Shown: one piece after another, positions 13,115 to 31,964 of the stretch | Numbering within the stretch: the first letter of the stretch is position 1 | How the letters are laid out: each line of letters begins with the position of its first letter | Assembly (NCBI GenBank): GCA_902826455.1 | Contig: CADEEV010000023.1 | Coordinates: 1 to 64,000, forward strand | Source: an uncultured Acidobacteriota bacterium | Lineage (GTDB): Bacteria; Acidobacteriota; Vicinamibacteria; Fen-336 | Direction of reading: 5' to 3' | DNA: 64,000 nucleotides | Notes under the pieces: model-generated | Databases searched by the model: none | The model's input: the letters and a program-made list of their open reading frames with translations, nothing else | What the model was told of the DNA's origin: nothing | Position numbers and translations under genes: made by a program

Positions 13115-15208
13115 ATGCTCCAGAACGCCTCGCGCCTCGCCCTGCGTGCCGCCGGACTCGCGTTCCTCTCCGCGGGCGTCGCGCACGCCGAGGGCGATCG
13201 CCAGAAGGACGCCGAAGCCCTCGTGCGGCGCGTGCCGAATGCCGACAGCTACGGGCGCCACCTCCGGATCCTGACGGAGGAGCCGCACCAGACGGGCACG
13301 CCGCGCAACATGGAGCTCGCCGAGTACGTGCGCGACCGCTTCCGCGAGTACGGCCTCGAGGACGTCCACTTCCACGACACGCCCGCCCTGATGACCTACG
13401 GCCGCGCGGCGAGCGTCGAGATCGTGTCGCCGGTGTCGATGAGGCTGAAGCTCAGCGAGGATCCCGTTCCCGGGGACAAGGACAGCCACCTCTACGAGGA
13501 TCCGACGCAGGTGCCGTTCCACGGCTACGCGCCGAGCGGCGACGTGACCGCCGAGGTCGCCTATGCGAACGGCGGCAGCCCGGAGGACTTCGCCGCGCTC
13601 ACGGCCATGGGCGTCGACGTGCGCGGGAAGATCGTCGTGATGCGCTACTCGAACCCCTACAGCTACCGCGGCTACAAGCTCTACCAGGCCGAGTCGCGTG
13701 GTGCGGTGGGCGCCATCATCTATTCCGACCCTGCCGAGGACGGCTATGCGCGGGGCGAGGTCTATCCGGACGGTCCGTGGGGACCGCCGAGCCACATGCA
13801 ATGGGGCGCCATCCTCTACGACTGGCTCGGAGCCGGCGAGCCGTTCACGTTCCACTGGACGAAGGCCGCGAACGGCGAGTGGCGCGAGGGCAAGGAGCGA
13901 GACAAGCAGCTTCCCCGCATCCCGTCGATCCCCATGTCCCACGAGGCGGTCGCCGAGATCCTCTCGCGACTGCGCGGGCCGCTGGGCCCCGCGAGTTGGC
14001 AAGGCGCCCTGCCGTTCACGTACCGCGCGGGCCCGGGGCCTGTCCGCGTGCGGCTCAAGACCGACAACGAAGAGACGATCGGGACCATGCGCAACGTCAT
14101 CGGCACGATCAAGGGCGCGGTCGAGCCCGAGAAGTGGGTCGTGCTGGGCAACCATCGCGATGCCTGGATCTACGGAGCCGTCGACCCGAGCAGCGGCACG
14201 GCGGCGCTCCTGGAGACCGCGCGGGCGCTGGGCGCCGCGGCGAAAGCCGGGTTTCGGCCGCGGCGCTCGATCGTCTTCGCCAACTGGGACGCCGAGGAGC
14301 AGCTGCTCGGCGGCTCGACCCAATGGGCGAAGGACAATCGCGAGAAGCTGCTGGCCGACGGCGTCGTCTACGTCAACGTGGACAGCGGCGCGACGGGCCC
14401 GGTGTTCGAGGGCGGGTCGACGCTGGCCCTCGGGGAATTCCTGAAGGGCGTGCTCCGCGACGAGCCCGATCCCGCGAGTGGCGGATCGCTCTACGACGCC
14501 TGGGCGGCGGCGACGCCGGGAGGCGCGCCGGAGCCCAAGCGCATCGTGGGCGCCACGGACTACACCGCGTTCATGGAGCACCTGGGCATGAGCTGCATCG
14601 ACATGACCTTCGACGGCCCCTACGGCGTGTACCACTCGATGTACGACAACTACCAGTGGATGAGCCGGGTGGCCGACCCGGGCTTCCACTACAACACGGC
14701 CCTCGCGCGCGTCTGGTCGGTGCTGGCGCTGCGCCTGGCGAACGCCGAGATCCTGCCGATGCAGTACTCGCGCTACGCGAAGGCCGTGCCTTCGTACCTG
14801 GAAGCGGTGGAGGCCCGGCTCCCGGCGGACCGCAAGGTGCGTTTCGACGCGGCTCGGGCGGCGGCCGCTCGCTGGGAGGCCGCGGCCACCCGATTCGAGG
14901 CGCGTCTCGCGAAGGTGCCGACCGGCAGCCTGACGGCCGACGCCGTGCGCGACGTGAACGCGGCACTGCTCCTCACCGAGCGCGCGATGACCGAGCCGAA
15001 GGGCTTGAAGGGCCGGCCCTTCTTCAAGCACCTTCTCTATGCGCCGCAGCCGACCTACCGCGAGGAGCTCGTGCCGCGGATCTTCGAGGCGATCGACGGC
15101 GGCCGCTTCGCGGATCTGCCGATGCACGAAGCGGAGCTGGTCGCGGCCTTCGATCGGGCGGCAGCGATCCTCACGGGCGCGGAGGCGCGCCTGACCCCGG
15201 GGAACTGA
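13115..15208 (+). CDS. Secreted M28-family metallopeptidase (glutamate carboxypeptidase II-like)
   Basis: 697 residues with a signal peptide (to about residue 25, VAHA|EG). It has the layout of the PSMA/GCPII group: N-terminal region, PA domain (about 120-230, KIVVMRYSNPYSYRGYKLYQAESRGAVGAIIY), M28 catalytic domain and a C-terminal TFR-dimer-like helical domain. All zinc ligands are visible: His in GNHRDAW, bridging Asp in VDPSSGT, Glu pair in NWDAEEQLLGGS, Asp in VNVDSGA and His in YGVYHSMYD. It probably trims peptides in the periplasm. An extended -10 (TGC-TAGGCT, 13096-13104) precedes ATG by 10 bases without a Shine-Dalgarno. The last 38 bases overlap the convergent giant gene. Confidence 0.93.
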   Translation: MLQNASRLALRAAGLAFLSAGVAHAEGDRQKDAEALVRRVPNADSYGRHLRILTEEPHQTGTPRNMELAEYVRDRFREYGLEDVHFHDTPALMTYGRAASVEIVSPVSMRLKLSEDPVPGDKDSHLYEDPTQVPFHGYAPSGDVTAEVAYANGGSPEDFAALTAMGVDVRGKIVVMRYSNPYSYRGYKLYQAESRGAVGAIIYSDPAEDGYARGEVYPDGPWGPPSHMQWGAILYDWLGAGEPFTFHWTKAANGEWREGKERDKQLPRIPSIPMSHEAVAEILSRLRGPLGPASWQGALPFTYRAGPGPVRVRLKTDNEETIGTMRNVIGTIKGAVEPEKWVVLGNHRDAWIYGAVDPSSGTAALLETARALGAAAKAGFRPRRSIVFANWDAEEQLLGGSTQWAKDNREKLLADGVVYVNVDSGATGPVFEGGSTLALGEFLKGVLRDEPDPASGGSLYDAWAAATPGGAPEPKRIVGATDYTAFMEHLGMSCIDMTFDGPYGVYHSMYDNYQWMSRVADPGFHYNTALARVWSVLALRLANAEILPMQYSRYAKAVPSYLEAVEARLPADRKVRFDAARAAAARWEAAATRFEARLAKVPTGSLTADAVRDVNAALLLTERAMTEPKGLKGRPFFKHLLYAPQPTYREELVPRIFEAIDGGRFADLPMHEAELVAAFDRAAAILTGAEARLTPGN

Positions 15209-18200
15209 AGTTGACGATCGCGTCCCTCTCCGGCTGGCTCACGCCCAGCAGCGCTTCGGGATCAGTGAGATCGGCGAGCGTCGCGGCCGCCGCGTAGGCG
15301 GCGTCGGCCTCGCCGTTCGGCCGCTGGAGCGTGAAGCGCACCAGGACCGCTCTCCCGTAGGGAGGGAGGGTCAACCGTCCTCGCGCCACGAGCCAGGTCC
15401 AGGGTTCCTCGACCACGACATCGACGCTGTCGGTCGCCGCGGCCGCCGCGTTCGGCCCCGAGCGCACCCAGGCCATCGCCGGAGAGTCGGGGTCCAGGCT
15501 CTCGACGACGGCGAAGGCATCGGAGGCATCGAGCACGCTGTCGCCACTCGAGGAGCGTGTGACCTGCCAGGCTCCGGCCGAGGAATTGTGCGCCTGCTCG
15601 AGGTAGTACCCGACCGGCAGGGGCGCGTCCGTGGTGTTCTCGAGCACGTCGAGCACTCGGACGAAACGGCCGCTCGGCGGCACGAACACGCGGCGCGACA
15701 GACGCAGCCCCTCGAACCACTCGGGCCCGAGGCTCGCCTCGCGGCCCGCCTGGGTGATTCCGGCCGTGGCCCACTGGGAGTAGACGAAGGGACTCTCGGA
15801 TTCTCCGACGACGAACTGGGACCAACCCGCGCAGAAGGGGCGACACAGCCAATCGTCGCCGCTGCCGCTCGCTTCGACCACGCTGTTCCCGCGAGCGAAA
15901 TACGGCTGGAGGTCCGCGCCCGTGAGGTCCACGGGCCAGGCCCCGCGCAACCCGACAGGAACGACCACGTCGGCACGCAGGTTTGCCCTGGGAAGGACCC
16001 AGGCGAACCCGGTGTCGTCGTCCGGCTCTCCGCCCCCGACGGCAATCGCGACGGCAGTGGGCGGCACACGTTGGAAGGTCGCGCGGCCGAATTCATCGAG
16101 GGTGCCGAGCGCGGTCCACAGGGATCCGGGCGCGGAGAGCAAGACCGGAAGCCCCGGAGCCGGATCACCGGTGGACACGGAGACGCCGGTGACGTCGAGC
16201 GTCGCCAACTCCGGATCGGCCGCGAGCACGACCGTCACTTCCGTCGTTTGGGCTTCCAGGACGGTGACTGGCATCGAGCCAGGGCGCCCCGAAACGGGAT
16301 CGTAGACCTCGACGCGATACGTCCCGGGAGGCTCGACGGTCAACGAGAAGCGCCCCTCGGCATTCGTCTCTCCGCGATCGAGGAAGCCGCCGTCACCATG
16401 GACGCCCACGGCGGCGCCGGCCACGGGCGCGCCCCCGTCGTCGAGAACGAGCCCCGTGACGGTTCCGGAGGGAACGAGAACCAGTGCCAGCGAGGTGGCC
16501 GCGGGCGGCACGTGGTCGCCTTCGACGAAGGCTCTATCGAGAGGTTCTTCCAGCGCCACACGCACGCGCCCCGCAGGGACGTCCTGGAATGTGACCCGGC
16601 CCTGTGCGTCGAAGAGCCCGACCGCCTGCCAGGCGGGAGAGTAGCCCTCGAGCGTGAGGGTTGCCTGCACTCCCTCGATGCTCGAAGTCCCCGTCACTTG
16701 AACGACGACGGTGCCCAGCTCGTCGTCGGCCGGCAGCCGCACGAGCAGGCGAGCTTCCTGCCCGTTCGCGACATCCGCCACGGCACGTCCTGGCCGGCGA
16801 CCGGCATCGCTCGCGACGACCACGTAGTCGCCCGCATCGAGACCCTGGAAGGCGAACTCCCCGTCGGCGGCGGCCGTCGTGCGGTCGACGATCGTCCCGG
16901 CTTGCATGAGCACGACCTGGGCGTTGCCGGCGCGCGCTCCCAGGCTGGTTTCCACGCGGCCACCGAGACGCGTTTGCCCGGGGATCGCGAAATTGACGAT
17001 CGCGCGGCGGTCGTCAGCCGTGAGGCCGGTCAGCGCGTCCGGATCGTCGAGCGTGGCCAGGGCGCGCATCTGGGCGGCCAGGCTCGCGTCGTCCGGCGCT
17101 CGCGACACGCTGAAGGTCAAGAGCGCACGTGTGGCGCCCGCCGGGATGCTCCACTCGCGGACGAAGCGGAACTGGCCGGTCGAGCCCTCGGTGCAACCAT
17201 CGCCCGCGTAGTCCTGCTCTCCGGCCACGAAGGAAGCGGCCCCGGGCTGCAGTCCTTCACCTGCGACCACTCCCATGGCGAGCCCGGGACCATTGGGCCG
17301 GGCGATGGCAAAGGAGTCGTTCTCGTCGAGGACGGCGTCGCCACTCGACGTCTCGAGGAGTACCCAGGCTGGCCCGCCGGGACAACCCTCGACCGGCGGA
17401 ACGGGCAGCTCGGCCAGAGATGCGAGAGGCGCATCGATCGGGAGCGCGGTCGTGTTGCGCACGACGGTCAGGGTACGGACGAAAGCGCCTGAGGACGGAA
17501 CGTATTCCTGTTTGCGGACTTCGAGGCCGCCCACGGACTCGCGCAAGTAACGGTGGGCTCGCCCTTCGGCCTCCGCTGCGACGACGTGCTCGTACTCGAC
17601 GCCGTTCACGTCCGTCCGCAAGGCGGGAGACGCCGTCCGATGCCCCGAACAATCGTCGGCCTCGCCGTAGGCACCCAGCGGCCCTGAGAGGATTCCCGCG
17701 ACGATGTGACTGCCACGGGTGAGGAGGCTCGTCTGTGTTTCCGCAGCCTCGAGGACGCTCTCCACCGCGGCCGGCCCGTCGTTCCTGCACGTCGCCGGCG
17801 CGTAGTCTCCCTCGAAGACGATGCGGTAGGGACCAGCGGGCGCCTTGAGCGAGAACGACCCGTCCGGCGCCGTCGACACGACACGCGACCAACGTGCCGA
17901 CGGCGTCGGCGCCTCGAGCACGACGACGCGCGCCTGACGCTCGAGGGGCGCCCCCGCCTCGTCGACGAGGGTGCCTTCGAGCGTCCCCGATGCCGCGAGC
18001 CCCACATCCAGCCTCAGCTCCCGACGGGCTTCGACCGGGGCCCATTCGCTCAGTCCCGGAAGCCGGTCGCCTGCGCTCTCGGCATGGACCCGCACCTGGC
18101 CGGGCCGCACGTGGAGGAACTCGAAGCGTCCCATGGCGTCCGTCGTCTGTTGGCGACCGTCGGGCAGCCGGACGTCGGCGCCGGCCGCGACGTCGCCCGA

Positions 18201-21200
18201 GGACTCTCGAACCGTTCCGGCGACGCTGCCCGTCTCGGGCAGGACGAGGTCCTGGTTCCGCGCCCCGGGCTGCGTATGGTTGAACGGTCGAGCGACGCTC
18301 GCGGTGAGGCCGGAGCCATCGCCGACGAGCGCCGTCACAGTGATCGTCACGTTGTTGCACGACGGGACGGTCGCGCAGAACCTCCAGTGAGGCAGTCCGG
18401 CGAGGATGTAGCCTCCGTTGCCGTCGGTGGTCGTGGTGACGCACGATTGCACCGTGAAGGAATCGTCGGGTCCACACGCCCGAACCGTCGCGTCGACCAC
18501 GGGCTCCGAAGTGGGCTCGAGGATGCGCCCGTAGAGAGCTGCCCCGGGAAGGACGAGATCGACGACGCGCTCCTCGCCAGGCATCAGGGTCACCGTTTCG
18601 GAGCGGCTGGAACCTCCGAGCGAAGCGGTCACCGTCGTCGTGGCGGCGGGAACGTTGACGAACGCGTAGGCTCCGTCCTCCCCTGCGCGGGTGGCGCCGA
18701 CCCCTGAGAGCGTGACGTCGGCGCCGGAAGCCGGCACGCCGCCGCCAAGCAGGATCGTGCCCCGCAGCGTCGCAGCGATCTGAGGCAGCGCGAAGTGGAG
18801 CTCGAGGTCACCGCCAGGCTCGACGCTGCCGTTCTGCTCGAAGGGTGCGCCCGTCACGGGGTCGACGAGAGACACGCGCACGAGACCCGCCGGCAGTGAG
18901 ATGTCCACGCGCCCGGCGACGTCGGTGGTCACGACCCGGTGCCGATCGCCTTCGGGCGCGTCGGGGTCGTTGGTCTCGAGGTGCACGTCCTGGCCCGCGA
19001 CGGGAAGACCGCCGCGTGTGACGGAGACGTGGACCGCCGCACGCGCGGAGATCTGGATCTCGACGCTGCTGGTACCGGGCTCGGCCACCAGCGCAGTGGC
19101 CGAACCCAGAACGACGCCGGCCAGGTCGATCGCCTCGACGAGAGCGGAACCACCTGGAACGCTCTCGGCCACGAAGCGCCCTGCCGAGTCGGCAGCGACG
19201 TGGCGCACGAAGTGTCCGCAGGTGATTCGCACGGGCTGTCCCGATGCCCCGGCGAGACCGGGACGCAGCTGGACCCGTCCCTCGATGCGGCCTTCGGGCA
19301 GCCGGACGGCCCGTCCACCGGGCACAACCAGTTGGAAAGCGCCCGTCTGCCCACCTGGGCCGCGCACCGCCAACAGGACCGAACCTGCCGTTTCCTGGAA
19401 CGACGTCACCTGAGGAGAGGCGAGGGCCGGGAGGCTACCCTCGGCGACGCCAAGAGCCGTCGCGGCGACCGAGTCCCCGGATGGGACGAGGATCCGGAAC
19501 ACCGGCTTGTCCTCCGGAGCACGGACGGCGCCCGCGATCTCAAGGCTCGCGACAGCGTTCTGTCCCGCCTCCACCCGCAGGGGCATCTCCGTGAACGCGA
19601 GGGTGGGGTGCGTGGGGCGACCCGTCTGGATCAGGAGGGCTCCCGGCGGCAGATTCGGGGCGAGGAACGCGCCGGTCGAATCCGCCGCCAGTGTCGTGAC
19701 CAGTGTTCCGTCTTCGAGTCGGACACGGATCACGGCATTCGCCGCCGGCGTCCCGTCCGGTCGGCGCACGACGCCGGATGCGCTCGCAGGCTGCGGGAGC
19801 TCGAGACCGGCCGATACCTGCTGTCCTTCCGACGCGATGGCGGCGCTCGTCTCTGCCGTGATGAAGGGGGAGCGTGGGTGTCGTGCCCGGACGCGGATCG
19901 GAGCGCCGGTCACATCCTCCATCGTGCAGACACCGGCGCTCGTCGTGGTGCAGACGCCCAACGATCCATTGGATGGACCGTCACTCCAGCTCACGATCGC
20001 GTCCGGGAGCGGTTGGCCTCCCGAGGTCACCGACGTCGAGAGCCGGCCGAAGGGCGGGAACGTGAAGTCGGCGATCGCCACCTGATGCTCGGGGATGCTG
20101 AGGGACCGGAAGAGGGTCAGCGGCGAGCGTGAGGCGCGGATCTCGTAGTCCCCCACCACGAGGTCCGTCATCGCGAAGACTCCATGGGCCACCATGGACC
20201 GGTCGCCGCCGGTGCCCGTCACGGTCAACGAAGCCGTGGCCGCGGAACCGTCGGCCTTCGAGACTTGCCCTTGCAGTGTGCCCAGGGCCGGCAGCACCAA
20301 CACGACAGGTGTGCTCTGGTCCGGGGCAACATCGATCGACCGGGTCACCGAGGCGTGGCTATCCCCCGCAAGCGCGCCATGCAGTATGTACGGACCTGGC
20401 GGAACGACCAGGAAGCGGTGCACGGGTGCGGCACGCAGGTCGATCGTCAGGAACGGCGTCGCGTCGATGCGCCCGCCGATGTAGGGCGTCTGGTCCGAAC
20501 GGACGAGCCGCGCCTCGATCACACCCGTGCCATGGAACACGACGTCCTGTCCGGTCCGTCCACTCGGAGCTCCTCCGCTGTCGCCGTACACCTCGAGCTC
20601 CGCGAACTGGGCGCCGGCCCCGAGGTCGGCTACGTTCACGACGCGTACGGCCCGGGCGTGGGCAATCGCCGGCACTGTGAGGTCGAGGCCGCCGATGAGA
20701 TTCCGTTCCTGCCACCAAAGGACGGACCCGGCGGCATCGCGGACCTCGAGCCGCGCCCGCAGGAAGGTGGCGCCCTCGAGACGAATCCGCTCGATGACGG
20801 TGTCGCGCGGGAAGGCGATCTCGAAGAACGGCGTGCCGGCGCCCGGAGAAGCGACGTCGCCCGCGCGCCAGCGGAACGCCGATGCGGCGTCGCGATCGAC
20901 GGCCCCAAGTGTCGGGGTCGAGCTGCTGCTCGCGCGCAGAACCCTGCCGGCCAGGCTCGTGAGATCGATGGAGCCGTTGCTCGGGAAGTCGCCGCGGGTC
21001 GTGGTCGTCTGGCCGCCCGCCTGGGACACCCAGGCCGTGAGCGCGAACCCGGTCCTCGGGACTGCGTGGCGTCCGTCGGACGCGCCGTCCGTCGCGCGAA
21101 TCGCGAACGATCCGTCGCCCAGGGGCATGGCGGCGAGCGGGCGCCCAAAGTAGGGGCTGTCGCTCTTGAGCGAGACGGCCGCGCCGCTCACGGTTGTCGC

Positions 21201-24200
21201 CCCGTCTCCGGCCAGGACCCGGCCAGAGACGAAGCCGTCGTTGGGCGGCAGCGGCTCCAGCGCGCTGAGGAGGCTCTCGGGCACGGCAAAGTTGACGATT
21301 GCGGCCGCATCCTGCGGCGACAGGCCGATCAATGCTTCGGGCGGCAGGCTCTCGAGCCGCGTCACCGAAGCCAGGGCGCGGCTCCGATCGCCCTGCAGCG
21401 CGATGAAGTGCAGCACGGCAGCGCGCCCTCCGGGCTCCAGATGCAGGCCGTCGTACTGGTAGACCAGGCGGCCCGCGTTCATCTCGAGACGCGGGGCCAC
21501 GGACCCGCCTGTACCGGCAGCGATCCCGAGCGGCGGGCGGTGTGGAGCCTGGGCACTGCGCGCGTACCAGTCACCGTCCCGGTCGTCGAGAACGACGTAG
21601 CGGTCGGAAACATCGACGACCTCGTCTCCGGACGACGTCGAGACCGGCTCGATCGGTCCGCCGAGCTGCTCCGCGAGCCCGATGCCCTCCTGGATCGCGA
21701 GGGCGGCGGTCGTGACACCGACATTCGTGACGATGTCCAGGTATCGAACGAAGTAGCCGTCGGCGGGAACGTACACCCGTCGTTCCAGGCGCAGATCCCC
21801 CGTCTCTTGATGGAGCCTCAACTCACGCCGCTCGAGCGCCGAAGCCGCCATCGCTCCCGTTCCCGTGAACGGAAGCGCGATATCGCCCTGGTAGACGGTC
21901 CAGTGCGGTGCACCATCCCCGAACAGCCCCTCGTGCCCCGCGGCCGTGCCGTCCGGCCGGACTCGGAAGCGGAAGCCATTGGCGTCGTCGAGATCCAGGG
22001 GCACGGCGACGGCACTCGACAGCAGACCCAGGTCGACCACGAGCGTCTGTCCGTGGCGATCGAGCTGGCCCGGCGCCTCGGCCCGATCGCCGAGGCCGTC
22101 GTCGGCGGATACCCAGAACGCGCCGGTCGGTATCGCGTCGAAGCGATACCGACCCGAGGCGTCCGTCGTGGCCGTGAACGTTCCACCGACGTACGGCGAG
22201 GGATGCTGAAGGCGCACGACCTGGCTCGAAGCGGCACTGCCGCTGGCGTCGACGACGGAGCCACCGACCGCTCCGAGGCCGACCAGCACGATCTCCACGC
22301 CCACCCGATCGGGGGCCTCCACCGTCAGTCGGAAGCGGGCCACGCCACGGATCCGGTTCGCCACCGAGACGAGCGCGACCTGGTCGGTGTCGATCGGGAG
22401 GTTCGTGAGCTCGAAGACTCCGGCGTCGTCGCTGGCTGCCGACTGGACGCCGCTCGAGACGAGCGCTCCGGCCACGGGTGTCGTGCCATCCGGCCCAAGA
22501 ACTCGACCACTCACTCGTCCGGCGGGGCGCAGCTCGAGGCCGACGTCGAGCACGGCCCCGGGCGCCAACGTGCCCGTCGTACGGGCGCCGCTCGTCCGAA
22601 CCGGGTCGAAAGCGTCGATCGTCACGGCCCCGGCGAGGAGGTTGCCGAGGATCGCGACGCCGCCGGCATCCGTGTCGGCCTGACGCCTGTTTCCGGAGGT
22701 CGCGGTGACATGGACGCCGCTCGCACCCGAGCCGTCCGGGTTGCGGACCCGGACGAAGACCGAGCCCAGGCCCGTGAGGCGGGCCTCGACCCGGGTCGTC
22801 GCGTCCGCGGCGACGCTCCCGGCGATGCGAGCGCGATCGCCCTCGGGCGTATCCACGTCCAGGACGAACGCGCCGACCCTCACGGTCTCGAAAGCGAACG
22901 CACCCTCGGCGTCCGCATGGACGATGCGGGCGCTCCCCGGCAGCGATCCCACCACTCGGGCGCCGGCGTGGGGCGATCCGTCGAAGTTCATCACGGTGCC
23001 CGCGAGCCGGCCCGCCGCGGAAAGCGCCACGTCGAAGGTGACCGACGCGCCGTCGGGCGCCGTGGGCCCCGTGCCGCTGCCGGTCAGGCCGTCGGCGGGG
23101 TTCCGCACGTCGGCCGAGAGCTTCCCGGCGAGAACCTCCGGGAAGAAGGCCACGCCGAGGTCATCCGTGGTGCCATTGGTCAGGGAGGCGTCGCCGTAGG
23201 CCACTGACTGCGCGCGCAGGGAGACGCTCGCGCCGGACACGGACTGCCCGTGAGCGTCGCGGACTCGGACGCTCGCCGCCGCCAGTCCGTTCAGGCGGAC
23301 GTCGACCGACGTCGTCTGGCTTTCGACGACGTCCACCACGCCCCGTCCATAGTCGGGACTGCCCAAGTCGTCCGCTGCGAGCGTCGCGCGGCCGACAGGA
23401 ACGGCATCGAAACGGAAGCTTCCGTCGGGGCCGGTGGTCGCGATCTGCGTCGCCGCTCCGTTCAGGCGAACGCTCGAGGGGGGCGCCGGCGTCACGCCGT
23501 CGGCGCGAAGCACGCGCCCGGAGACCGCGCCGCTGCCGCGAAGCGTCACGTCCAGGATCAGGCACTCGCCGTCTCCGGCCAGGATGCCCTCGCCAGTACC
23601 GGCGAGGAACCCGTCGCCGAGGTTGGCTGCGGCCACCACGCGACCCTCGGGAACGCCGTCGACGACGTAGTGGCCCTGGCCGTCGGTGAGCGTCGCGACC
23701 CGGAAGGTTCCCGACGTGACGAGCACGCGGGCGGCGGCTCGCGGGGCTCCGTTCAGGACCACCGATCCCTGGACCGTGCCCAGACCCTGCGCGACGAGCC
23801 GAACCTCCAGGACCTGACCTTCCTCTTCGAGCGATCCCGCGAAGGACGCCGTCCGCGCCGAGAGGGGATCCTGGGCGGTGACCTCGAACGTTCCCGCCGG
23901 CACGAAGTCGAACGAAAACGCGCCGATGTCCCCGCTCGCCAGGGTCGCAACCTGGCCGAAGACGCGATCCGCCTGTCGCAGGGTCACGATGCCGTAAGGA
24001 ATGGGCTTCGTTCCGTCGCGCTCGAAGAAGTGGCCCCGGACCCGGCCCGTCGAGTTGAGCCGTACCTTGACTTCTTGCGTGGATCCCGGCGCGGCAAGGA
24101 CCGAGGACGCCCGCCCGCCACGGCCCTGCGCGTCGAAGGCCTCCGCGCTGAATGGCCCCTCGAAGACCCCCGGGAACGTCGCCACGCCGTCGTTCGAGAG

Positions 24201-27200
24201 GCTCAGCGCGGCCTCGTACCCGCGCAGCGGGAACTCGGATTCGGCGAGCTTCACGTAGGCGCTCGCGACTGGCCGGTCGAGGCCGTCGACGACGCGGACG
24301 CGCACCGCTCCCTTGCCCTTGAGGCGCAGGTCCTGGACGGCGTCCTGGCCCGCGCGGAGGAACACGCGCTCCTGCACCACGCCGCCCGTCACCGGATCGC
24401 GAGCCGTGAGGCGGTACGACCCCGCGGGCAGGATGCGTGCGAAGCGGAAGGCACCGCTCTCGTTCGTGCGTACGGTGACGTCGGGCAGCACGCCTCCGAC
24501 CGTGACCTCGACCCCGCTCCCCGCCGGCGTCGCGCCATCCGGCAGGAGGACTCGACCCGAGAGCTCTCCGGCCGTCGAATTGACCAGGCGAAGGGTGAAG
24601 GCCACTGCGCTCCCGGCCGTGAGCAGGTTGCCCTGGGCTCCGACGTCGGTCGGGAAGAAGGCCTGGTGCGCCGTGACGCCGATGGGGCCGACGTTGACGC
24701 GCGGTACCGCGAAGCGTCCCTGGACATCCGTGCGGATGCGGTGCGAAACGCCGAAGGCGAGCCCGCAGACGGAGCCGTCGTTCACGAATCGACTCGACCG
24801 GATCGCGACCTCGGCTCCCAGGGCGGGAGCGCCGTCCGGATCGAGGACGAGCCCCGTGACGACGCCCGTGCCCGCGAATTGCAGCACGGCGCGCCCGATC
24901 GCTCCGTCGGAGGAGATCGAAGCCGAGCCCCGGGCGGCATCGACGATCGTTCCGAGCTGCAGGGCCTGCGCGGTGGCCACACCGAGCGGCAGGCCTTCGA
25001 AGCGAACCCGCCCGTCGGGGCCCGTCTTCTTGAACTGGCAGCCGCACGCGTCGGCGCAGGCTCCGAGCAAGCCCACGTCGACGCCGGCGAGGATGCTTCC
25101 GTCCTTGCCGAGTACCGTGAACTCCGCGGTTCCGACCCCGGACAGCGCGATGTTCCGCGTCAGCGTCTGGGCGACGTTCATCACGAAGGAAGCGTCCCCC
25201 GAGCGGACGCCATCGCGCGCGCGCGCGACGACGTGCTGCACGATCCCCGAGCGGGCTTCGATGCCAGGAAGGACGTAGGAGCCGTCGGCGGCGGCAACGG
25301 TCGCACGGTCCCCAACGCTGACGATCGCCTCGGGCTCGGGCGCTCCGGAGGCCGTCGACACGCGTCCCGACAACGAGCCGTACTCGGATTCGGGCGGGAT
25401 CACGATCAGCAGATCACGCCCGATCAGCACGTCGCCCGCAGCGGCGACGCCGCTGAGCGAGGCGCGATCGCGCGTGTTGAGTGCCGTTTGCAGAGTGAAG
25501 GCGCCGGCCGGCATGCCCTCGAACGCGTACTGGCCGGTCGAGTCCGAGGTTGCGAGCCCCAGCAGGGTCGCGGCTTCGTACCAGCGCACCTGCGCTCCGG
25601 CCACCGGTGCGAGCTGCCCGGCGTCCAGCGTGCGCACGGTGCCCGACACGCGAACCGAACCGCTGCTCATCGTGACATCGACGCGCGCCAGCGTGCCGGC
25701 CCGATCGATGCGCCCCGTGGAGTAGCCGGCGAAGATTCCCTTCGAGACGCTGACGGTCACCTGCCCCACCGTGATCCCGTCGACGTGATACCTCCCGGCT
25801 CCGTCGGTTCGGGTGGCGCCGCCGCTCTGAGCATCGGCGACGCTCAGCACCACGACGTCCGCGCCAGGCACGGGCTTTCCCTGGAGGTCGCGCACGATGC
25901 CGGCGACGGATCCCCGGCCCAGCAAGACGAGGTCCAGGACGATCGCTTCGCCGGCGGTCCGGACGTACGACGAGGCACGGCGGAGCGCGCCGGTGGCCGG
26001 ATCCTGGGTGAGCACTCCGAAGGGTCGCCCGCAGGGGTCGCGTCGAACGTAGCGGAACTCGTAGGCTCCCTGGCTCGACACGTCGACTGCGGCCACGCCC
26101 TGGGGCGGCGCGCCGCCACACTCGACGTCCACGTTCGTCGCGTAGGTCACTCGCGCGTTCGTGACCGGGGAACCGTCGGCGTTCACGACCCGCCCGGAGA
26201 CGACGGCACCCGCATCCGTGAGACGCGAGGCCAGGGACACGGAGCGGCTGGGTCCGGAGGCGCCACGACCGTCGCGTATCCCGGCCACGGTCAGCTCGGT
26301 CGGCACGTAGGGCCCCTCGGGCTGAGCGAGCATGCCGAGCACGAGCCGCCCCGAGAGCTGCCGACGCGCGACGCGAACTTCGTTGTCGGGGATCGCGTAG
26401 TGCGTCACGTCGGCCGCGGACGTGGCCTCGACCGCGCGATCGAACAACAGGGCGAGGTGCTGGCCGAAGGGCCCGGAGCCGGCGAGGATCTCCGGGCCGA
26501 TCACGGTCGCCGAGACCAGGCGGGCGCCGTCGGACTCCAGCAGGCCCGTGCGGGGCACTTCGACCGGGTCGCCCGCGGGGCCGCGGCGCAGTTGGAGCCG
26601 CAGCGGGCGCGAGGCATCGAGCGTCAGTCGAGAGCCGCTGGCGAGGTCCGGCAGGTCGAAGCGGGCGAAACGGCCGTCGCCCATGGGGAGCGTGACGGAC
26701 ACGTCGAGCGATCCTTCGGGCGTGGCCAGCTCGAGGGTGTAGGGAGAAGCGGTGAGGTCTGTCACGAGCGCCAGGAGGCGACGGCCGTCCGGCGACAGCG
26801 GGACGATCGTGCTCGAGGCGATCGCGATCGGACCGTCCGTCGAGGAACGCCGACCGGCCGCGTCGACCAGGGTGAGAGCGACCGGCGATGCCGCATCGAC
26901 GCCGATCGCGAGGAGGTCCCGCGAGGCCGCAGCGCGCTCCGAGCTCTCGCGCTCGAAGCCCGTGGCCCCGCCGGAAGCGGGCATCGCCGCCTCGAGGACC
27001 CCACCTATGGCCTCTGAGAAGGCGCGGCCCGCCTCGGTCTCGCGAAGCAGCTGGTCGAAGCCGGGGTCGACGGGGGCCGGCCCGTGGAAGTCGAAGAGGA
27101 GGTCGCGCACGGAGTCGACGGCAGGCGCCCCGAGCTCGATCCGCAGGCCGGCCTCGGCCAGTGCGAGCACCTTCTCCGAAGCCCGAGCCTTGCTGACGCG

Positions 27201-28943
27201 CAGGACGCCTTGAGGAAGGGGGCCGGGCGGGGCGCTCGCCAGGCTCCACGCCTGGCCTAGCACACGCAGCGCGGACTCCACGACCTCGGGAGGCAGCCGA
27301 TCGACGGCACTCGGTAGCACGAGAGTGTCCGGCGACAGCGCGACGCCACGCTCGCCCACGCCGAGGGTGAACGCGAGCTCGCCCGTGGAGCCGTCCTGCG
27401 TGTCGAAGTGGAGGTAGCTGGCGACGACCTGGCCGGTGCGCTCGCTCCGCAGCTCGAAGGCGAGCGTCGCCGCGTCGCCGGGCCGGAGAGTATCGATCGA
27501 GAGTCGCGGCGGCCCCTCGAGGCGCGCCCCGCTCAGGCGGCTCGCGTCGATCCTCACCCCGACGTCGTTCCCGAGACCCTGGCCGATGTTGGTCACGGTG
27601 GCGAACAGCCTGAACCTCTCGCCCTGGCGCACCGTCGCCGGGGCCGCGAAGGCCACGTCGAAGTAGGGGTTGCGAACGAGCACCCCGCCGCTGGCCCGTC
27701 CCGAGATCGCCACCGGCCCCGTCGGAAGCCCTTCGAGGGTGGCGGCGATGTCGAAGGCGATGCTGTGGAACCCCTCCCGGTCTCCACGAATCAGGAACTC
27801 GGCCTGGCCCTGTTCGCCGGCCCGCAGCCTCGATCGATCGTCGCCGGTGCCCGACTCGCCGTCGGGTCCGATGTCGAGCACGAGCTGCCGTTCGCTCTGC
27901 GGCCCTCGGGCGGTCGCGGGCAGCGAGAGCGGGTCGTCCATCGTCCCGGCCTCCCGGTCGTCACCCGGCGGCAGACCGATCGTTCCCGACACGTCCGTGA
28001 CGGTGAGCCCCGAGCCCGCAGGCACGCCGTTCGCCACGATGAGCTGGGCCGAGAAGAACTGCTTCAGGTATCCGACGTCGCCCGGGATGACGAGGATGCT
28101 GGGTACCCGGATGGGCTCGCCCGCCGCGGTGGTGAGTGGAATTCGAGGACGCGTTCCGCCGGGGCCGGGCGGACCCTCGCCCTCGAGGAGCATCGGGACG
28201 ATCGTGGGCACGGCGGCGGCCGGTCGCGATCCTCGAGGAGGCAGTGGCGGCGGCAGCAGGGGTTGCGGCACCGGCACGCCCTGGGCATCGAAGACGACGG
28301 GAAACGTGAAGGAGACGGGCGACGACTCGAGGGTCATGCCGAGCGTGAACTCGAAGCCGAGGTAGGCGTCGCTGTCCAGGACGATGCCGCGAGAGCGGAC
28401 CTCGTCGAGAGTGAGAGGCCGTGTCTGCACCGACGTGACGAGCACCTGGTCGATGACCCGGACGCTCACGCTGCGCGGCTCGACGTCGAGGGCGACGCGA
28501 CCATCGGCCACGATCCGCAAGCCTGAGAGCACGTAGTCGCCGGCAGTCGACAGGGGCGGTACGTGGATCAGCAGCGGATCCAGGGGTGCCGCCTCGCCGG
28601 GTTGCGGCAGCGACAGGGTGGTGTCCAGACCCGGCCCCGAGAGCTCGCCCTGGACTTCGAAGGCCCCGCCGACGAACCGGGCGATCTCCTCGGGGCTCAG
28701 CGCGACGCCGCCCGCGCGAACGACCACCCGGACGCCCGAGGCCAGGTTCTTGGGGACGACGAGAGTGGCGGGCTCGGCGGTCGCGCTGACGCCTGCGAGC
28801 CGCAGCTCGAGTTCCCCGAGCTTCCGGAAGGGCGGCTCGGTGGCGGCGGAAGCCCGGGACGCCGCGAAGGCCGCGACGAGAACGAACCAAGCCCCGACGC
28901 GAAGGAGGTCCGCGGGTTGCCCGTGCCTGCCCGAGTGCGTCAT
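15171..28943 (-). CDS. Giant secreted protein with carboxypeptidase-regulatory-like (Cna_B-type) repeats
   Basis: 4,590 residues in one open frame. A signal peptide ends near residue 34 (ASRASAA|TEPP). Residues about 35-900 hold Ig-like regions, including a CARDB-like stretch (ATVRQGERFRLFATVTNIGQG). From about 910 there are more than 25 carboxypeptidase-regulatory-like domains with the cadence SGxVxxxDGxPVxGAxVxV, then TDxxGxYxFxxVPxGxxxV. They are interrupted by three copies of a ~240-residue module (nt 21280-22012, 16981-17690, 15198-15940) and one discoidin-like domain (nt about 20570-20950; FFEIAFPRDTVIERIRLEG). The third module is the C-terminus. No membrane anchor or sorting motif is visible. 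It is probably an adhesin or extracellular matrix protein; function unknown. A good promoter (TTGACA-N18-TAGTCT) lies upstream. Confidence 0.9.
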   Translation of the reverse strand: MTHSGRHGQPADLLRVGAWFVLVAAFAASRASAATEPPFRKLGELELRLAGVSATAEPATLVVPKNLASGVRVVVRAGGVALSPEEIARFVGGAFEVQGELSGPGLDTTLSLPQPGEAAPLDPLLIHVPPLSTAGDYVLSGLRIVADGRVALDVEPRSVSVRVIDQVLVTSVQTRPLTLDEVRSRGIVLDSDAYLGFEFTLGMTLESSPVSFTFPVVFDAQGVPVPQPLLPPPLPPRGSRPAAAVPTIVPMLLEGEGPPGPGGTRPRIPLTTAAGEPIRVPSILVIPGDVGYLKQFFSAQLIVANGVPAGSGLTVTDVSGTIGLPPGDDREAGTMDDPLSLPATARGPQSERQLVLDIGPDGESGTGDDRSRLRAGEQGQAEFLIRGDREGFHSIAFDIAATLEGLPTGPVAISGRASGGVLVRNPYFDVAFAAPATVRQGERFRLFATVTNIGQGLGNDVGVRIDASRLSGARLEGPPRLSIDTLRPGDAATLAFELRSERTGQVVASYLHFDTQDGSTGELAFTLGVGERGVALSPDTLVLPSAVDRLPPEVVESALRVLGQAWSLASAPPGPLPQGVLRVSKARASEKVLALAEAGLRIELGAPAVDSVRDLLFDFHGPAPVDPGFDQLLRETEAGRAFSEAIGGVLEAAMPASGGATGFERESSERAAASRDLLAIGVDAASPVALTLVDAAGRRSSTDGPIAIASSTIVPLSPDGRRLLALVTDLTASPYTLELATPEGSLDVSVTLPMGDGRFARFDLPDLASGSRLTLDASRPLRLQLRRGPAGDPVEVPRTGLLESDGARLVSATVIGPEILAGSGPFGQHLALLFDRAVEATSAADVTHYAIPDNEVRVARRQLSGRLVLGMLAQPEGPYVPTELTVAGIRDGRGASGPSRSVSLASRLTDAGAVVSGRVVNADGSPVTNARVTYATNVDVECGGAPPQGVAAVDVSSQGAYEFRYVRRDPCGRPFGVLTQDPATGALRRASSYVRTAGEAIVLDLVLLGRGSVAGIVRDLQGKPVPGADVVVLSVADAQSGGATRTDGAGRYHVDGITVGQVTVSVSKGIFAGYSTGRIDRAGTLARVDVTMSSGSVRVSGTVRTLDAGQLAPVAGAQVRWYEAATLLGLATSDSTGQYAFEGMPAGAFTLQTALNTRDRASLSGVAAAGDVLIGRDLLIVIPPESEYGSLSGRVSTASGAPEPEAIVSVGDRATVAAADGSYVLPGIEARSGIVQHVVARARDGVRSGDASFVMNVAQTLTRNIALSGVGTAEFTVLGKDGSILAGVDVGLLGACADACGCQFKKTGPDGRVRFEGLPLGVATAQALQLGTIVDAARGSASISSDGAIGRAVLQFAGTGVVTGLVLDPDGAPALGAEVAIRSSRFVNDGSVCGLAFGVSHRIRTDVQGRFAVPRVNVGPIGVTAHQAFFPTDVGAQGNLLTAGSAVAFTLRLVNSTAGELSGRVLLPDGATPAGSGVEVTVGGVLPDVTVRTNESGAFRFARILPAGSYRLTARDPVTGGVVQERVFLRAGQDAVQDLRLKGKGAVRVRVVDGLDRPVASAYVKLAESEFPLRGYEAALSLSNDGVATFPGVFEGPFSAEAFDAQGRGGRASSVLAAPGSTQEVKVRLNSTGRVRGHFFERDGTKPIPYGIVTLRQADRVFGQVATLASGDIGAFSFDFVPAGTFEVTAQDPLSARTASFAGSLEEEGQVLEVRLVAQGLGTVQGSVVLNGAPRAAARVLVTSGTFRVATLTDGQGHYVVDGVPEGRVVAAANLGDGFLAGTGEGILAGDGECLILDVTLRGSGAVSGRVLRADGVTPAPPSSVRLNGAATQIATTGPDGSFRFDAVPVGRATLAADDLGSPDYGRGVVDVVESQTTSVDVRLNGLAAASVRVRDAHGQSVSGASVSLRAQSVAYGDASLTNGTTDDLGVAFFPEVLAGKLSADVRNPADGLTGSGTGPTAPDGASVTFDVALSAAGRLAGTVMNFDGSPHAGARVVGSLPGSARIVHADAEGAFAFETVRVGAFVLDVDTPEGDRARIAGSVAADATTRVEARLTGLGSVFVRVRNPDGSGASGVHVTATSGNRRQADTDAGGVAILGNLLAGAVTIDAFDPVRTSGARTTGTLAPGAVLDVGLELRPAGRVSGRVLGPDGTTPVAGALVSSGVQSAASDDAGVFELTNLPIDTDQVALVSVANRIRGVARFRLTVEAPDRVGVEIVLVGLGAVGGSVVDASGSAASSQVVRLQHPSPYVGGTFTATTDASGRYRFDAIPTGAFWVSADDGLGDRAEAPGQLDRHGQTLVVDLGLLSSAVAVPLDLDDANGFRFRVRPDGTAAGHEGLFGDGAPHWTVYQGDIALPFTGTGAMAASALERRELRLHQETGDLRLERRVYVPADGYFVRYLDIVTNVGVTTAALAIQEGIGLAEQLGGPIEPVSTSSGDEVVDVSDRYVVLDDRDGDWYARSAQAPHRPPLGIAAGTGGSVAPRLEMNAGRLVYQYDGLHLEPGGRAAVLHFIALQGDRSRALASVTRLESLPPEALIGLSPQDAAAIVNFAVPESLLSALEPLPPNDGFVSGRVLAGDGATTVSGAAVSLKSDSPYFGRPLAAMPLGDGSFAIRATDGASDGRHAVPRTGFALTAWVSQAGGQTTTTRGDFPSNGSIDLTSLAGRVLRASSSSTPTLGAVDRDAASAFRWRAGDVASPGAGTPFFEIAFPRDTVIERIRLEGATFLRARLEVRDAAGSVLWWQERNLIGGLDLTVPAIAHARAVRVVNVADLGAGAQFAELEVYGDSGGAPSGRTGQDVVFHGTGVIEARLVRSDQTPYIGGRIDATPFLTIDLRAAPVHRFLVVPPGPYILHGALAGDSHASVTRSIDVAPDQSTPVVLVLPALGTLQGQVSKADGSAATASLTVTGTGGDRSMVAHGVFAMTDLVVGDYEIRASRSPLTLFRSLSIPEHQVAIADFTFPPFGRLSTSVTSGGQPLPDAIVSWSDGPSNGSLGVCTTTSAGVCTMEDVTGAPIRVRARHPRSPFITAETSAAIASEGQQVSAGLELPQPASASGVVRRPDGTPAANAVIRVRLEDGTLVTTLAADSTGAFLAPNLPPGALLIQTGRPTHPTLAFTEMPLRVEAGQNAVASLEIAGAVRAPEDKPVFRILVPSGDSVAATALGVAEGSLPALASPQVTSFQETAGSVLLAVRGPGGQTGAFQLVVPGGRAVRLPEGRIEGRVQLRPGLAGASGQPVRITCGHFVRHVAADSAGRFVAESVPGGSALVEAIDLAGVVLGSATALVAEPGTSSVEIQISARAAVHVSVTRGGLPVAGQDVHLETNDPDAPEGDRHRVVTTDVAGRVDISLPAGLVRVSLVDPVTGAPFEQNGSVEPGGDLELHFALPQIAATLRGTILLGGGVPASGADVTLSGVGATRAGEDGAYAFVNVPAATTTVTASLGGSSRSETVTLMPGEERVVDLVLPGAALYGRILEPTSEPVVDATVRACGPDDSFTVQSCVTTTTDGNGGYILAGLPHWRFCATVPSCNNVTITVTALVGDGSGLTASVARPFNHTQPGARNQDLVLPETGSVAGTVRESSGDVAAGADVRLPDGRQQTTDAMGRFEFLHVRPGQVRVHAESAGDRLPGLSEWAPVEARRELRLDVGLAASGTLEGTLVDEAGAPLERQARVVVLEAPTPSARWSRVVSTAPDGSFSLKAPAGPYRIVFEGDYAPATCRNDGPAAVESVLEAAETQTSLLTRGSHIVAGILSGPLGAYGEADDCSGHRTASPALRTDVNGVEYEHVVAAEAEGRAHRYLRESVGGLEVRKQEYVPSSGAFVRTLTVVRNTTALPIDAPLASLAELPVPPVEGCPGGPAWVLLETSSGDAVLDENDSFAIARPNGPGLAMGVVAGEGLQPGAASFVAGEQDYAGDGCTEGSTGQFRFVREWSIPAGATRALLTFSVSRAPDDASLAAQMRALATLDDPDALTGLTADDRRAIVNFAIPGQTRLGGRVETSLGARAGNAQVVLMQAGTIVDRTTAAADGEFAFQGLDAGDYVVVASDAGRRPGRAVADVANGQEARLLVRLPADDELGTVVVQVTGTSSIEGVQATLTLEGYSPAWQAVGLFDAQGRVTFQDVPAGRVRVALEEPLDRAFVEGDHVPPAATSLALVLVPSGTVTGLVLDDGGAPVAGAAVGVHGDGGFLDRGETNAEGRFSLTVEPPGTYRVEVYDPVSGRPGSMPVTVLEAQTTEVTVVLAADPELATLDVTGVSVSTGDPAPGLPVLLSAPGSLWTALGTLDEFGRATFQRVPPTAVAIAVGGGEPDDDTGFAWVLPRANLRADVVVPVGLRGAWPVDLTGADLQPYFARGNSVVEASGSGDDWLCRPFCAGWSQFVVGESESPFVYSQWATAGITQAGREASLGPEWFEGLRLSRRVFVPPSGRFVRVLDVLENTTDAPLPVGYYLEQAHNSSAGAWQVTRSSSGDSVLDASDAFAVVESLDPDSPAMAWVRSGPNAAAAATDSVDVVVEEPWTWLVARGRLTLPPYGRAVLVRFTLQRPNGEADAAYAAAATLADLTDPEALLGVSQPERDAIVNFSSPGSGAPPRP
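15198..15940 (-). repeat. Module copy 3 in the giant protein (C-terminal)
   Basis: Third copy of a ~240-residue module. Shared landmarks are a strand pair LxxRRVFVPPSGRFVRVLDV, NTTDAPLP, SSGDSVLDASDAFAV and the closing TDPEALLGVSQPERDAIVNFSSP. It ends eight residues before the stop, so the protein terminates with this module. Confidence 0.75.
16981..17690 (-). repeat. Module copy 2 in the giant protein
   Basis: Second copy. Landmarks are LEVRKQEYVPSSGAFVRTLTV, NTTALPID, SSGDAVLDENDSFAI and DDPDALTGLTADDRRAIVNFAIP. It is followed directly by another carboxypeptidase-regulatory-like repeat. Confidence 0.75.
21280..22012 (-). repeat. Module copy 1 in the giant protein
   Basis: First copy. Landmarks are LRLERRVYVPADGYFVRYLDI, SSGDEVVDVSDRYVV and LPPEALIGLSPQDAAAIVNFAVP. 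The strand-rich middle and the IVNFA.P end align by eye with copies 2 and 3. Confidence 0.75.
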
Positions 28944-29659: not shown

Positions 29660-30547
29660 CTAGAAGAAGCGCTCGGGGACGATGAGCGTGTCCTCGGGCT
29701 CGACCAGGTCCGTGGGCTCGGGCTTGAATTCCTTCTTCTCGCCGTCCACGACCCGCACGATCTTGACGCGGCCCCCGGCGCCGCGCGGGCCGACGCCGCC
29801 CGCGAGGGTCAAGGCCTGGAGCACCGTCATGCCGGACTGGTAGCGGTACGGACCCGCCCGGCCCACCTGGCCCGTGATGTAGATCTGGCGCGCCTTGGGG
29901 AAGAAGATCGTGTCGCCGGCCTGCAGCGTGATGTTGTTGTCGGGATCGCCGGCCTGCGCCTTCTCGATCAGGGCGCGGTACACCTGGGCGCCGGGAACGG
30001 TGGCGGCCACCTGCTGGACCGTGGCCGCGTCCGCGTCGGTCGGGATCTCGCTGAGCGCCGGCGCCAGCTGCGGCTCGCCGCCTTCGACCGGCACGACCTG
30101 CGCGCCACGCGTGATCACGACCTCGTGGCCGGAATCGTTGCCCAGGCTGCCCAGGTCCCCGAGCAGGGCCCTCAGCGAGCGGTCGCCCTTGATCGGATAG
30201 AGACCGGGCTTCGGCACGGCCCCGGTCACGAAGACCATCTGGCTCTTGTATTCCTTGACCTTGACCGAGACCTGGGGCTTCTTGATGTAGCCGTCGGCCA
30301 GCAGCGTCGTGAGCTTGCGCTCGAACTCGGGGGGCGTCATCCCCGAGGCCTTGATCTTGCCCAGGGCCGGGAACGTCAGCATGCCGTCCCGGTCCACCGG
30401 GAAGTCGGCCGTCATGTCGGCCTGGCCCAGCACCACCACCGCCAGCACGTCCTCCGGACCGATCTCGTAGGTTTCGTCCGCGTGCAGGAAGGCCGGCAGG
30501 GCCAGCAGGAGCGGGAGCAGGAGCACGAACGGCTTCATCAGGCGCAT
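29660..30547 (-). CDS. Polysaccharide export protein (Wza/SLBB family)
   Basis: About 295 residues from MRLMKPFVLLLPLLL. The signal peptide ends FLHA|DETY. It has a poly_export domain (YEIGPEDVLAVVVLGQADM, FPVDRDGMLTFPALGKIKASG) followed by SLBB beta-grasp domains (MVFVTGAVPKPGLYPIKGDRSLRALLGDLG and IYITGQVGRAGPYRYQSGMTVLQALTLAGG). Wza proteins form the periplasmic/outer-membrane channel for capsule or exopolysaccharide. No lipobox Cys is seen at the signal end, unlike E. coli Wza. It follows the outer-membrane barrel gene by 57 bases and probably shares its transcript. Confidence 0.92.
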   Translation of the reverse strand: MRLMKPFVLLLPLLLALPAFLHADETYEIGPEDVLAVVVLGQADMTADFPVDRDGMLTFPALGKIKASGMTPPEFERKLTTLLADGYIKKPQVSVKVKEYKSQMVFVTGAVPKPGLYPIKGDRSLRALLGDLGSLGNDSGHEVVITRGAQVVPVEGGEPQLAPALSEIPTDADAATVQQVAATVPGAQVYRALIEKAQAGDPDNNITLQAGDTIFFPKARQIYITGQVGRAGPYRYQSGMTVLQALTLAGGVGPRGAGGRVKIVRVVDGEKKEFKPEPTDLVEPEDTLIVPERFF

Positions 30548-30604
30548 AGACAACTTGCGATTCTGTCGAGGGCGGGGGGCCAAGTCAAACAGCCCTGCGC
30601 GGGC

Positions 30605-31939
30605 TCAGTAGGTCGGCTGTGGCGGCGTGTAGGTCACGGTGATGCCGACGTTCAGGCCCTGCACCCCGAAGTAGGCCACGTCGGACTGGCGCTGAGAGTA
30701 GGAGACCTCGACGCCGGTGCGCAGGTTCTCGCGAATGTAGTAGCCCAGGTTCCCGCCGTAGCGCCAGTAGCTGTCGTCGCGGTCGCCGATCTGGATCGAG
30801 CCGTCAGGCAGGACGAGCCGGATGGCACCGTCGGTCACGAGGCGCGCGTAGGAGCCGAACAGCCGGATGTCCACCCGCGAGCCCAGCTCCTTGCTGATGC
30901 TGAGGCTCGCGAGGTCCTTGGCCAGGGTCTGCGTCTCGCCGTCCGTCGTGTACGCCGAGTAGTCGAAGTCCTTCGAGTAGCCGAGAGAGATGTTCGTCCT
31001 CGGCGAGAACACCCAACGGAACACGCTGTTCGTGTACAGCTGCTGCCGGCCCTGGTCGTTGTCGTCGCGGGTGAAGCGCCGGGTGCCGACCAGCACCTCC
31101 CCGCTGAGGAGCGTCTCGGAAGCCACCCGGATGCCCCCGTAGAAGCGGTTCCACATGCCGTTCCGGGTGGCGTCTTCCGGGAAGCGGTCCCACTGGTGAT
31201 CGCCGCCTCCCACGAGGCTGGTCTTGATCGACAGCGCGTACTCGAGCTCGCCGCCCGCGACGTAGGTGTCGCGGGTCAGGTTGGCCTGGAGATCGTTGCC
31301 GAGCACGAGCTCCTCGTCGAGGATCCGGGTATGCGCCCGTCTTCCGAGGAGGGTGAAGTAGAAGGGCCCCGCCAGCTGGCGCCGCAGCTCGAGGTTCGTC
31401 GATTCGACGTCGCGCAGCAGGTAGGCGTCGACCTCGGGATCGGGCCTCGAATTGGTGCGGGCCCAGCTCTCGGTCGCGTTGAACTGCGTGCGCGTGGTGT
31501 CGAAGATCAGGGAGCCCCGCAGCGTCGTGTTCAGGCGCCGCTTGTCCGTGTTCTTGTGGAAGTAGACGTACTGCACCGTGCTGTCCTGTTCGAAGCGGCC
31601 CGAGAGGCCGATCGGCAGCACCGTCAGGAGCCCGGGGCCGGCACTCGCGATCACGTCGGACTCGCGCTGACCCGTGGGCTCGTAGAGCACGTTGCTGTCG
31701 TAGATGACGCTGCCGACCCGTAGCGAGGGCGTGAGCCAGAGCGCGCCGACGTTGAAGCGCCCGTAGTCCGCCGGCTGCACGGGCAACTCGGAACCCGGCT
31801 CCGGGGGCGGCGCCGCGTCGGGAGTCGGCGCGTCGGGGGCCGGAGCACCCTCGGGCGGCGGGGTCGGCGTCGGCGTGGGTTCCTGCGCCCGGGCGATCAG
31901 GGGCGCAGAGGCGAGCAGGAGGAGGGCCAGGAAGCGCAT
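30605..31939 (-). CDS. Outer-membrane beta-barrel protein (exopolysaccharide-associated type)
   Basis: About 444 residues from MRFLALLLLASAPLIARAQ (signal peptide). A 40-residue Pro/Thr/Glu linker follows (repeated PTPTP and APDAPTPDA), then about 16-18 amphipathic strands. It ends in alternating polar/hydrophobic residues, GVQGLNVGITVTYTPPQPTY. The pattern YGRFNVGALWLTPSLRVGSVIYDSNVLY is typical of barrels encoded with Wza-type exporters. It lies between the Wza gene and a GT-C glycosyltransferase, so it may form the outer-membrane exit pore or a secretin-like partner. Start ATG 31939 is preferred to ATG 31978 because the signal peptide begins there. Confidence 0.8.
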   Translation of the reverse strand: MRFLALLLLASAPLIARAQEPTPTPTPPPEGAPAPDAPTPDAAPPPEPGSELPVQPADYGRFNVGALWLTPSLRVGSVIYDSNVLYEPTGQRESDVIASAGPGLLTVLPIGLSGRFEQDSTVQYVYFHKNTDKRRLNTTLRGSLIFDTTRTQFNATESWARTNSRPDPEVDAYLLRDVESTNLELRRQLAGPFYFTLLGRRAHTRILDEELVLGNDLQANLTRDTYVAGGELEYALSIKTSLVGGGDHQWDRFPEDATRNGMWNRFYGGIRVASETLLSGEVLVGTRRFTRDDNDQGRQQLYTNSVFRWVFSPRTNISLGYSKDFDYSAYTTDGETQTLAKDLASLSISKELGSRVDIRLFGSYARLVTDGAIRLVLPDGSIQIGDRDDSYWRYGGNLGYYIRENLRTGVEVSYSQRQSDVAYFGVQGLNVGITVTYTPPQPTY

Positions 31940-31964
31940 CAGGAAGCGATCGAGCGGCAGTCTC

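Follow-up and report, generated by a model that had tools for sequence, protein, structure and literature searches.

A threefold-repeated module of predicted supersandwich fold in a giant repeat protein of an uncultured Acidobacteriota bacterium

The window, a stretch of 64,000 nucleotides of contig CADEEV010000023.1 (assembly GCA_902826455.1) from an uncultured Acidobacteriota bacterium, carries on its minus strand an uninterrupted open reading frame of 4590 residues (15171..28943; ORF listing and translation), which holds all three copies of the module described here. The protein starts with MTHSGRHGQPADLLRVGAWFVLVAAFAASRASA, and its first ~33 residues resemble a signal peptide when read by eye. 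On the basis of this N-terminus and of the repeats, the giant protein is most likely exported. Pfam finds 22 CarboxypepD_reg stretches (PF13620) in it, together with related prealbumin-like folds. Much of the protein outside the modules corresponds to CarboxypepD_reg repeat proteins, whereas the three modules themselves are not CarboxypepD_reg. Two of the PF13620 matches lie close to the modules on the same minus strand, a prealbumin-like repeat between copies 2 and 3 (16224..16463) and one immediately following copy 2 (16734..16967). The best-conserved part of the protein, with 50–67% identity in three relatives, comprises residues 36–600 (27144–28838, minus strand), for which no Pfam family scored above cut-off. 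The stretch following copy 1 (20544–21146, minus strand) looks discoidin (F5/8C)-like by eye and recurs in two relatives only; as it gave zero Pfam matches, the discoidin identity was dropped.

The gene convergent with the giant reading frame (13115–15208, plus strand) encodes an M28 peptidase with PA and TFR_dimer domains, similar to glutamate carboxypeptidase II, and overlaps the 3′ end of the giant frame by about 38 bases. Upstream of the giant frame (29660–31978, minus strand), a Poly_export/SLBB protein and a BBP2_2 beta-barrel protein are encoded, likely a polysaccharide export pair, which was not found beside the module in the loci of the relatives. These loci span 7–20 kb, often with little flank, and contain none of nine neighbouring genes of the window; we therefore infer no partner gene.

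Copy 1 (residues 2307–2558; 21270..22025), copy 2 (residues 3742–3991; 16971..17720) and copy 3 (residues 4322–4590; 15174..15980) all lie in frame on the minus strand, within a few residues of the positions given in the initial annotation, which had noted an unrecognised ~240-residue module repeated three times. The repeated module is real and extends over ~250 residues. All three copies are supported by BLASTP, copies 1 and 3 in addition by AlphaFold and Foldseek/VIA, and copy 2 by profile match and its position in the tree; ~40 residues at the N-terminus of copy 2 align poorly. Alignment of the three translations revealed similarity well beyond the short motifs, the copies aligning over ~190–210 residues at 31–35% identity (pairwise BLASTP: 31% over 211 residues, E 3e-14; 35% over 190, E 5e-16; 32% over 192, E 4e-15). 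A profile built from the three copies gave matches at their own positions and nowhere else in the 5.26 Mb genome, and the repetition is therefore far beyond chance. The motifs thought to be shared were largely recovered. The FVR strand reads YVPADGYFVR, YVPSSGAFVR and FVPPSGRFVR in copies 1, 2 and 3, the SSGD loop SSGDEVVDVSD, SSGDAVLDEND and SSGDSVLDASD, and the closing AIVNF is present in all three. Copy 1 nevertheless departs from the proposed pattern in lacking the arginine before AIVNF (DAAAIVNF) and in having NVG in place of the NTT-like turn. Likewise, the description of the modules as interruptions of the regular beta repeats does not hold for copy 3, which ends the protein instead.

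No known family could be assigned to the module, as had already been supposed. Neither single copies nor any member of the 22- and 46-sequence alignments matched a Pfam family above cut-off; NCBIfam gave no match for the window copies, and GH94 (PF06165), GH65N (PF03636) and YidC_periplas (PF14849) zero matches for any of them. PDB sequence searches with single copies and profiles yielded nothing significant; the matches to the FleA lectin (E 0.05) and Spo0J (E 0.1–0.3) were weak and partial and were discarded, as was DUF7012 for copy 2 (E 0.005), which was below cut-off and confined to one member. The module was not matched in phage records, and no description of it was found in the literature covered, which excluded subscription journals. 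Among the relatives, sub-cut-off Pfam scores were obtained for YidC_periplas (E 0.045 in the best relative), Hepar_II_III_C (0.078) and GDE_N_bis (0.033), which we take to be families of the supersandwich fold class, and these weak scores gave the first hint of that fold.

AlphaFold2 models were calculated for copy 1 from an alignment of 22 natural sequences and for copy 3 from one of 36. The model of copy 1 (pLDDT 90.7, pTM 0.90) contains sixteen strands followed by helices 214–225, 229–232 and 237–242; that of copy 3 reached a pLDDT of 88.9 and a pTM of 0.87. On these models, copies 1 and 3 are confidently predicted to adopt a galactose-mutarotase-like supersandwich, composed of two twisted antiparallel beta layers. 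The beta-sandwich guessed in the initial annotation from composition was therefore right in kind, both models being all-beta sandwiches. Foldseek comparison with the PDB retrieved the supersandwich class with both copies (E 3e-8 for copy 1, 9e-7 for copy 3), and the VIA search returned more than 500 chains at Z ≥ 8 for each model, with sequence identities of 5–16% among the fold matches. The module is an undescribed family within a known fold class, the fold being assigned by prediction.

The best fold match is dextran dextrinase 9ju0, with VIA Z scores (DALI scale) of 17.6/17.1 to copies 1/3 over 205/214 residues and an rmsd of 2.6/3.0. Cyclic glucan synthase follows at Z about 15–17 and many GH94 phosphorylases at about 15–16 with both models, and the N-domain of the GH65/GH15 clan GH-L enzyme FjGH65A (7fe3) at 16.2/16.3. 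In FjGH65A, the N-terminal beta-sandwich is succeeded by a helical linker and an (alpha/alpha)6 barrel (PMC8626586). The GH94/GH65 matches comprise the N-terminal supersandwich running into the helical linker, and the closing AL.GL....AIVNF segment is for this reason considered to form a C-terminal helical cap. For the GH94 phosphorylases and cyclic beta-glucan synthase (GH94_b-supersand, PF06165), the likeness extends over the full length of the module, up to the last strand and the start of the linker helix, at 6–16% identity. Unlike in the GH94 and GH65/GH15 enzymes and in 9ju0, no (alpha/alpha)6 barrel comes after the linker; the module copies precede CarboxypepD_reg-type repeats or the C-terminus. 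The periplasmic (P1) domain of YidC (PF14849; Foldseek E 9e-7 to 2e-6) shares the fold outside a glycosidase, although YidC is part of a membrane insertase and the module scores below the Pfam cut-off. This domain illustrates that a supersandwich can exist without a sugar-binding motif (PMC8669966).

At the sequence level, profile-profile comparison (hhalign) of the module with GH94, YidC and GH65N domains taken from related genomes, with reversed and block-shuffled controls, gave scores in excess of the controls for GH94 (31.1 versus ≤22.6) and YidC (25.7 versus ≤17.7), both in register and both of low probability (19% and 5%). The GH94 match spans the last strand and the helix after it, the YidC match the R.F.VP..Y hairpin. 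Glyco_hydro_65N gave no profile signal (16.6 against 17.3 for the controls; probability 0.3%). The GH94 and YidC matches, sub-threshold as they are, are suggestive of common descent.

The presence of GH174 endo-1,3-fucanases among the fold matches raises the question of a catalytic function. Structures 8jd7 and 9k1g align over 211–230 residues at Z 14.5–16.1 (8jd7: 16.1/14.5 to copies 1/3), but these enzymes carry long insertions, and the likeness is one of fold, at 8–11% identity. For the GH174 member Fun174A, the residues D119, E120 and E218 are listed (PMC11943901). Conservation was analysed across 46 module sequences and is given in the numbering of copy 1. Only Arg94 and Asn101 are invariant; Arg67, Arg82, Gly133, Asp134 (41 of 43) and Asp141 (41 of 46) are nearly so, and residue 97 is conserved as acidic. 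Galactose mutarotase and aldose 1-epimerase use a catalytic His and a Glu in a cleft. Among the 46 sequences, no His is conserved and no Glu is invariant; the missing His argues against a mutarotase-type His/Glu site, while another acid-based site would still be compatible. A supersandwich enzyme, for instance a GH174-like hydrolase, a lyase or an epimerase acting via Asp134, Asp141 and the acidic residue 97, nevertheless appears unlikely to us, because most of the conserved residues (Arg94, Asn101, Gly133 and Pro87) look structural, some members are devoid of Asp134, and no neighbouring gene was found to be conserved beside the module.

The SSGDxVxDxxD loop might alternatively be a metal site similar to that of dockerins or EF-hands, serving mainly the extracellular calcium-dependent folding of the domain. 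It resembles part of the EF-hand/dockerin loop, Dockerin_1 was scored in one member (E 0.07), and the Skermanella and Jannaschia copies mentioned below are located among RTX calcium-binding repeats. Against this, only 21 of the 46 rows have the middle Asp, the first EF-hand position is taken by Thr/Ser and the dockerin score is at chance level, so that we regard a calcium-stabilised domain of this kind as highly improbable.

The module was detected in 8 of 40 close-relative genomes searched and in 24 of 396 genomes of a phylum sample. The carriers include giant ORFs of 2,400–5,900 residues, in which the modules are accompanied by about 7 to 36 repeats. Beyond these samples, it occurs in Tahibacter aquaticus (Gammaproteobacteria), an Acidobacteria MAG and Granulicella tundricola, in RTX-linked S8 peptidases on two plasmids of Skermanella and in an ORF amid RTX proteins on a Jannaschia plasmid. 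A divergent form is placed N-terminal to an Amidase domain (PF01425; putative amidase) in several ORFs of about 820–960 residues, and further forms sit before DUF11 or Big_7 repeats. These associations, with long repeat rods, an amidase and an RTX-linked protease, are suggestive of an accessory unit that is exported. The CxPFC cysteine pair of copy 3, found in several modules of the C-terminal type, is compatible with an oxidising, exported location.

In a tree of 38 modules, internal and C-terminal types split with support values of 100/97. Copy 1, of the internal type, groups with the internal module from a different member of its own taxonomic family (96/89). Copy 2 is joined by copy 2 of genome G004 (99/99), and copy 3, of the C-terminal type, by the C-terminal module of genome G011 (96/87). 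As the copies cluster with their positional counterparts in relatives, they are old and have kept their positions. In the giant relatives, a conserved segment (PLP...G.V.G.V..GDG.TPV) follows the internal type, while the second type is located at or near the end of the ORF, 0–8 residues from the stop, in eight relatives' ORFs besides that of the window; the remaining ones are cut, frameshifted or without a C-terminal copy. Such constancy of position, with one type at the extreme C-terminus and the other before a conserved repeat (PLP..G.V.G.V..GD..TPV), would suit a purely structural, ligand-free role as a rigid spacer, as a C-terminal cap against fraying of the rod or as an aid in secretion or folding, and no conserved ligand platform was identified. 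We consider this role rather doubtful, though distinctly less so than a catalytic one, since the module is also present near the N-terminus of amidase-type proteins, which offer no rod to cap, and, in S8 peptidases, between stretches of RTX repeats, again without such a rod.

On balance, we slightly favour the modules as non-catalytic, exported binding or docking (scaffolding) units, whose ligand is probably a carbohydrate. The carbohydrate or ligand binding proposed earlier from composition is made plausible by the predicted fold. In this scenario, the module would correspond to the N-terminal sandwich and the start of the linker of GH94/GH65/GH15-type enzymes minus their catalytic barrel. 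A long rod of prealbumin-like repeats would carry three old copies of it, with the last of them closing off the C-terminus, and would hold them outward as units for binding or docking that lack catalysis and are probably directed at carbohydrates; in other proteins, the same module is joined to a putative secreted amidase or to S8 peptidases linked to RTX. More speculatively, and with clearly lower confidence, the module might represent an unnamed, fairly widespread family of exported glycan-recognition (or glycan-modifying) units, akin to the N-terminal half of (alpha/alpha)6 glycosidases minus the barrel, which would form several arms and the C-terminal tip of surface proteins of 2,400–5,900 residues and serve for the targeting of an amidase and of proteases. 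Naming the family would allow annotation of non-repeat parts that recur in very large Acidobacteriota proteins whose function is unknown, and its ~250-residue units would be concrete constructs for glycan-binding tests. As in YidC, the module would constitute a further case of a supersandwich away from its usual catalytic barrel.

A second giant ORF of 3898 residues with CarboxypepD_reg stretches and without the module is encoded in the same genome (G000:C2, about 188796–190331). In some relatives (loci L061, frames -0 and -1, L057 and L056), namely in G003, on a Granulicella plasmid and in Jannaschia, the module gene is split over frames or ORFs, which reflects either decay or assembly error.
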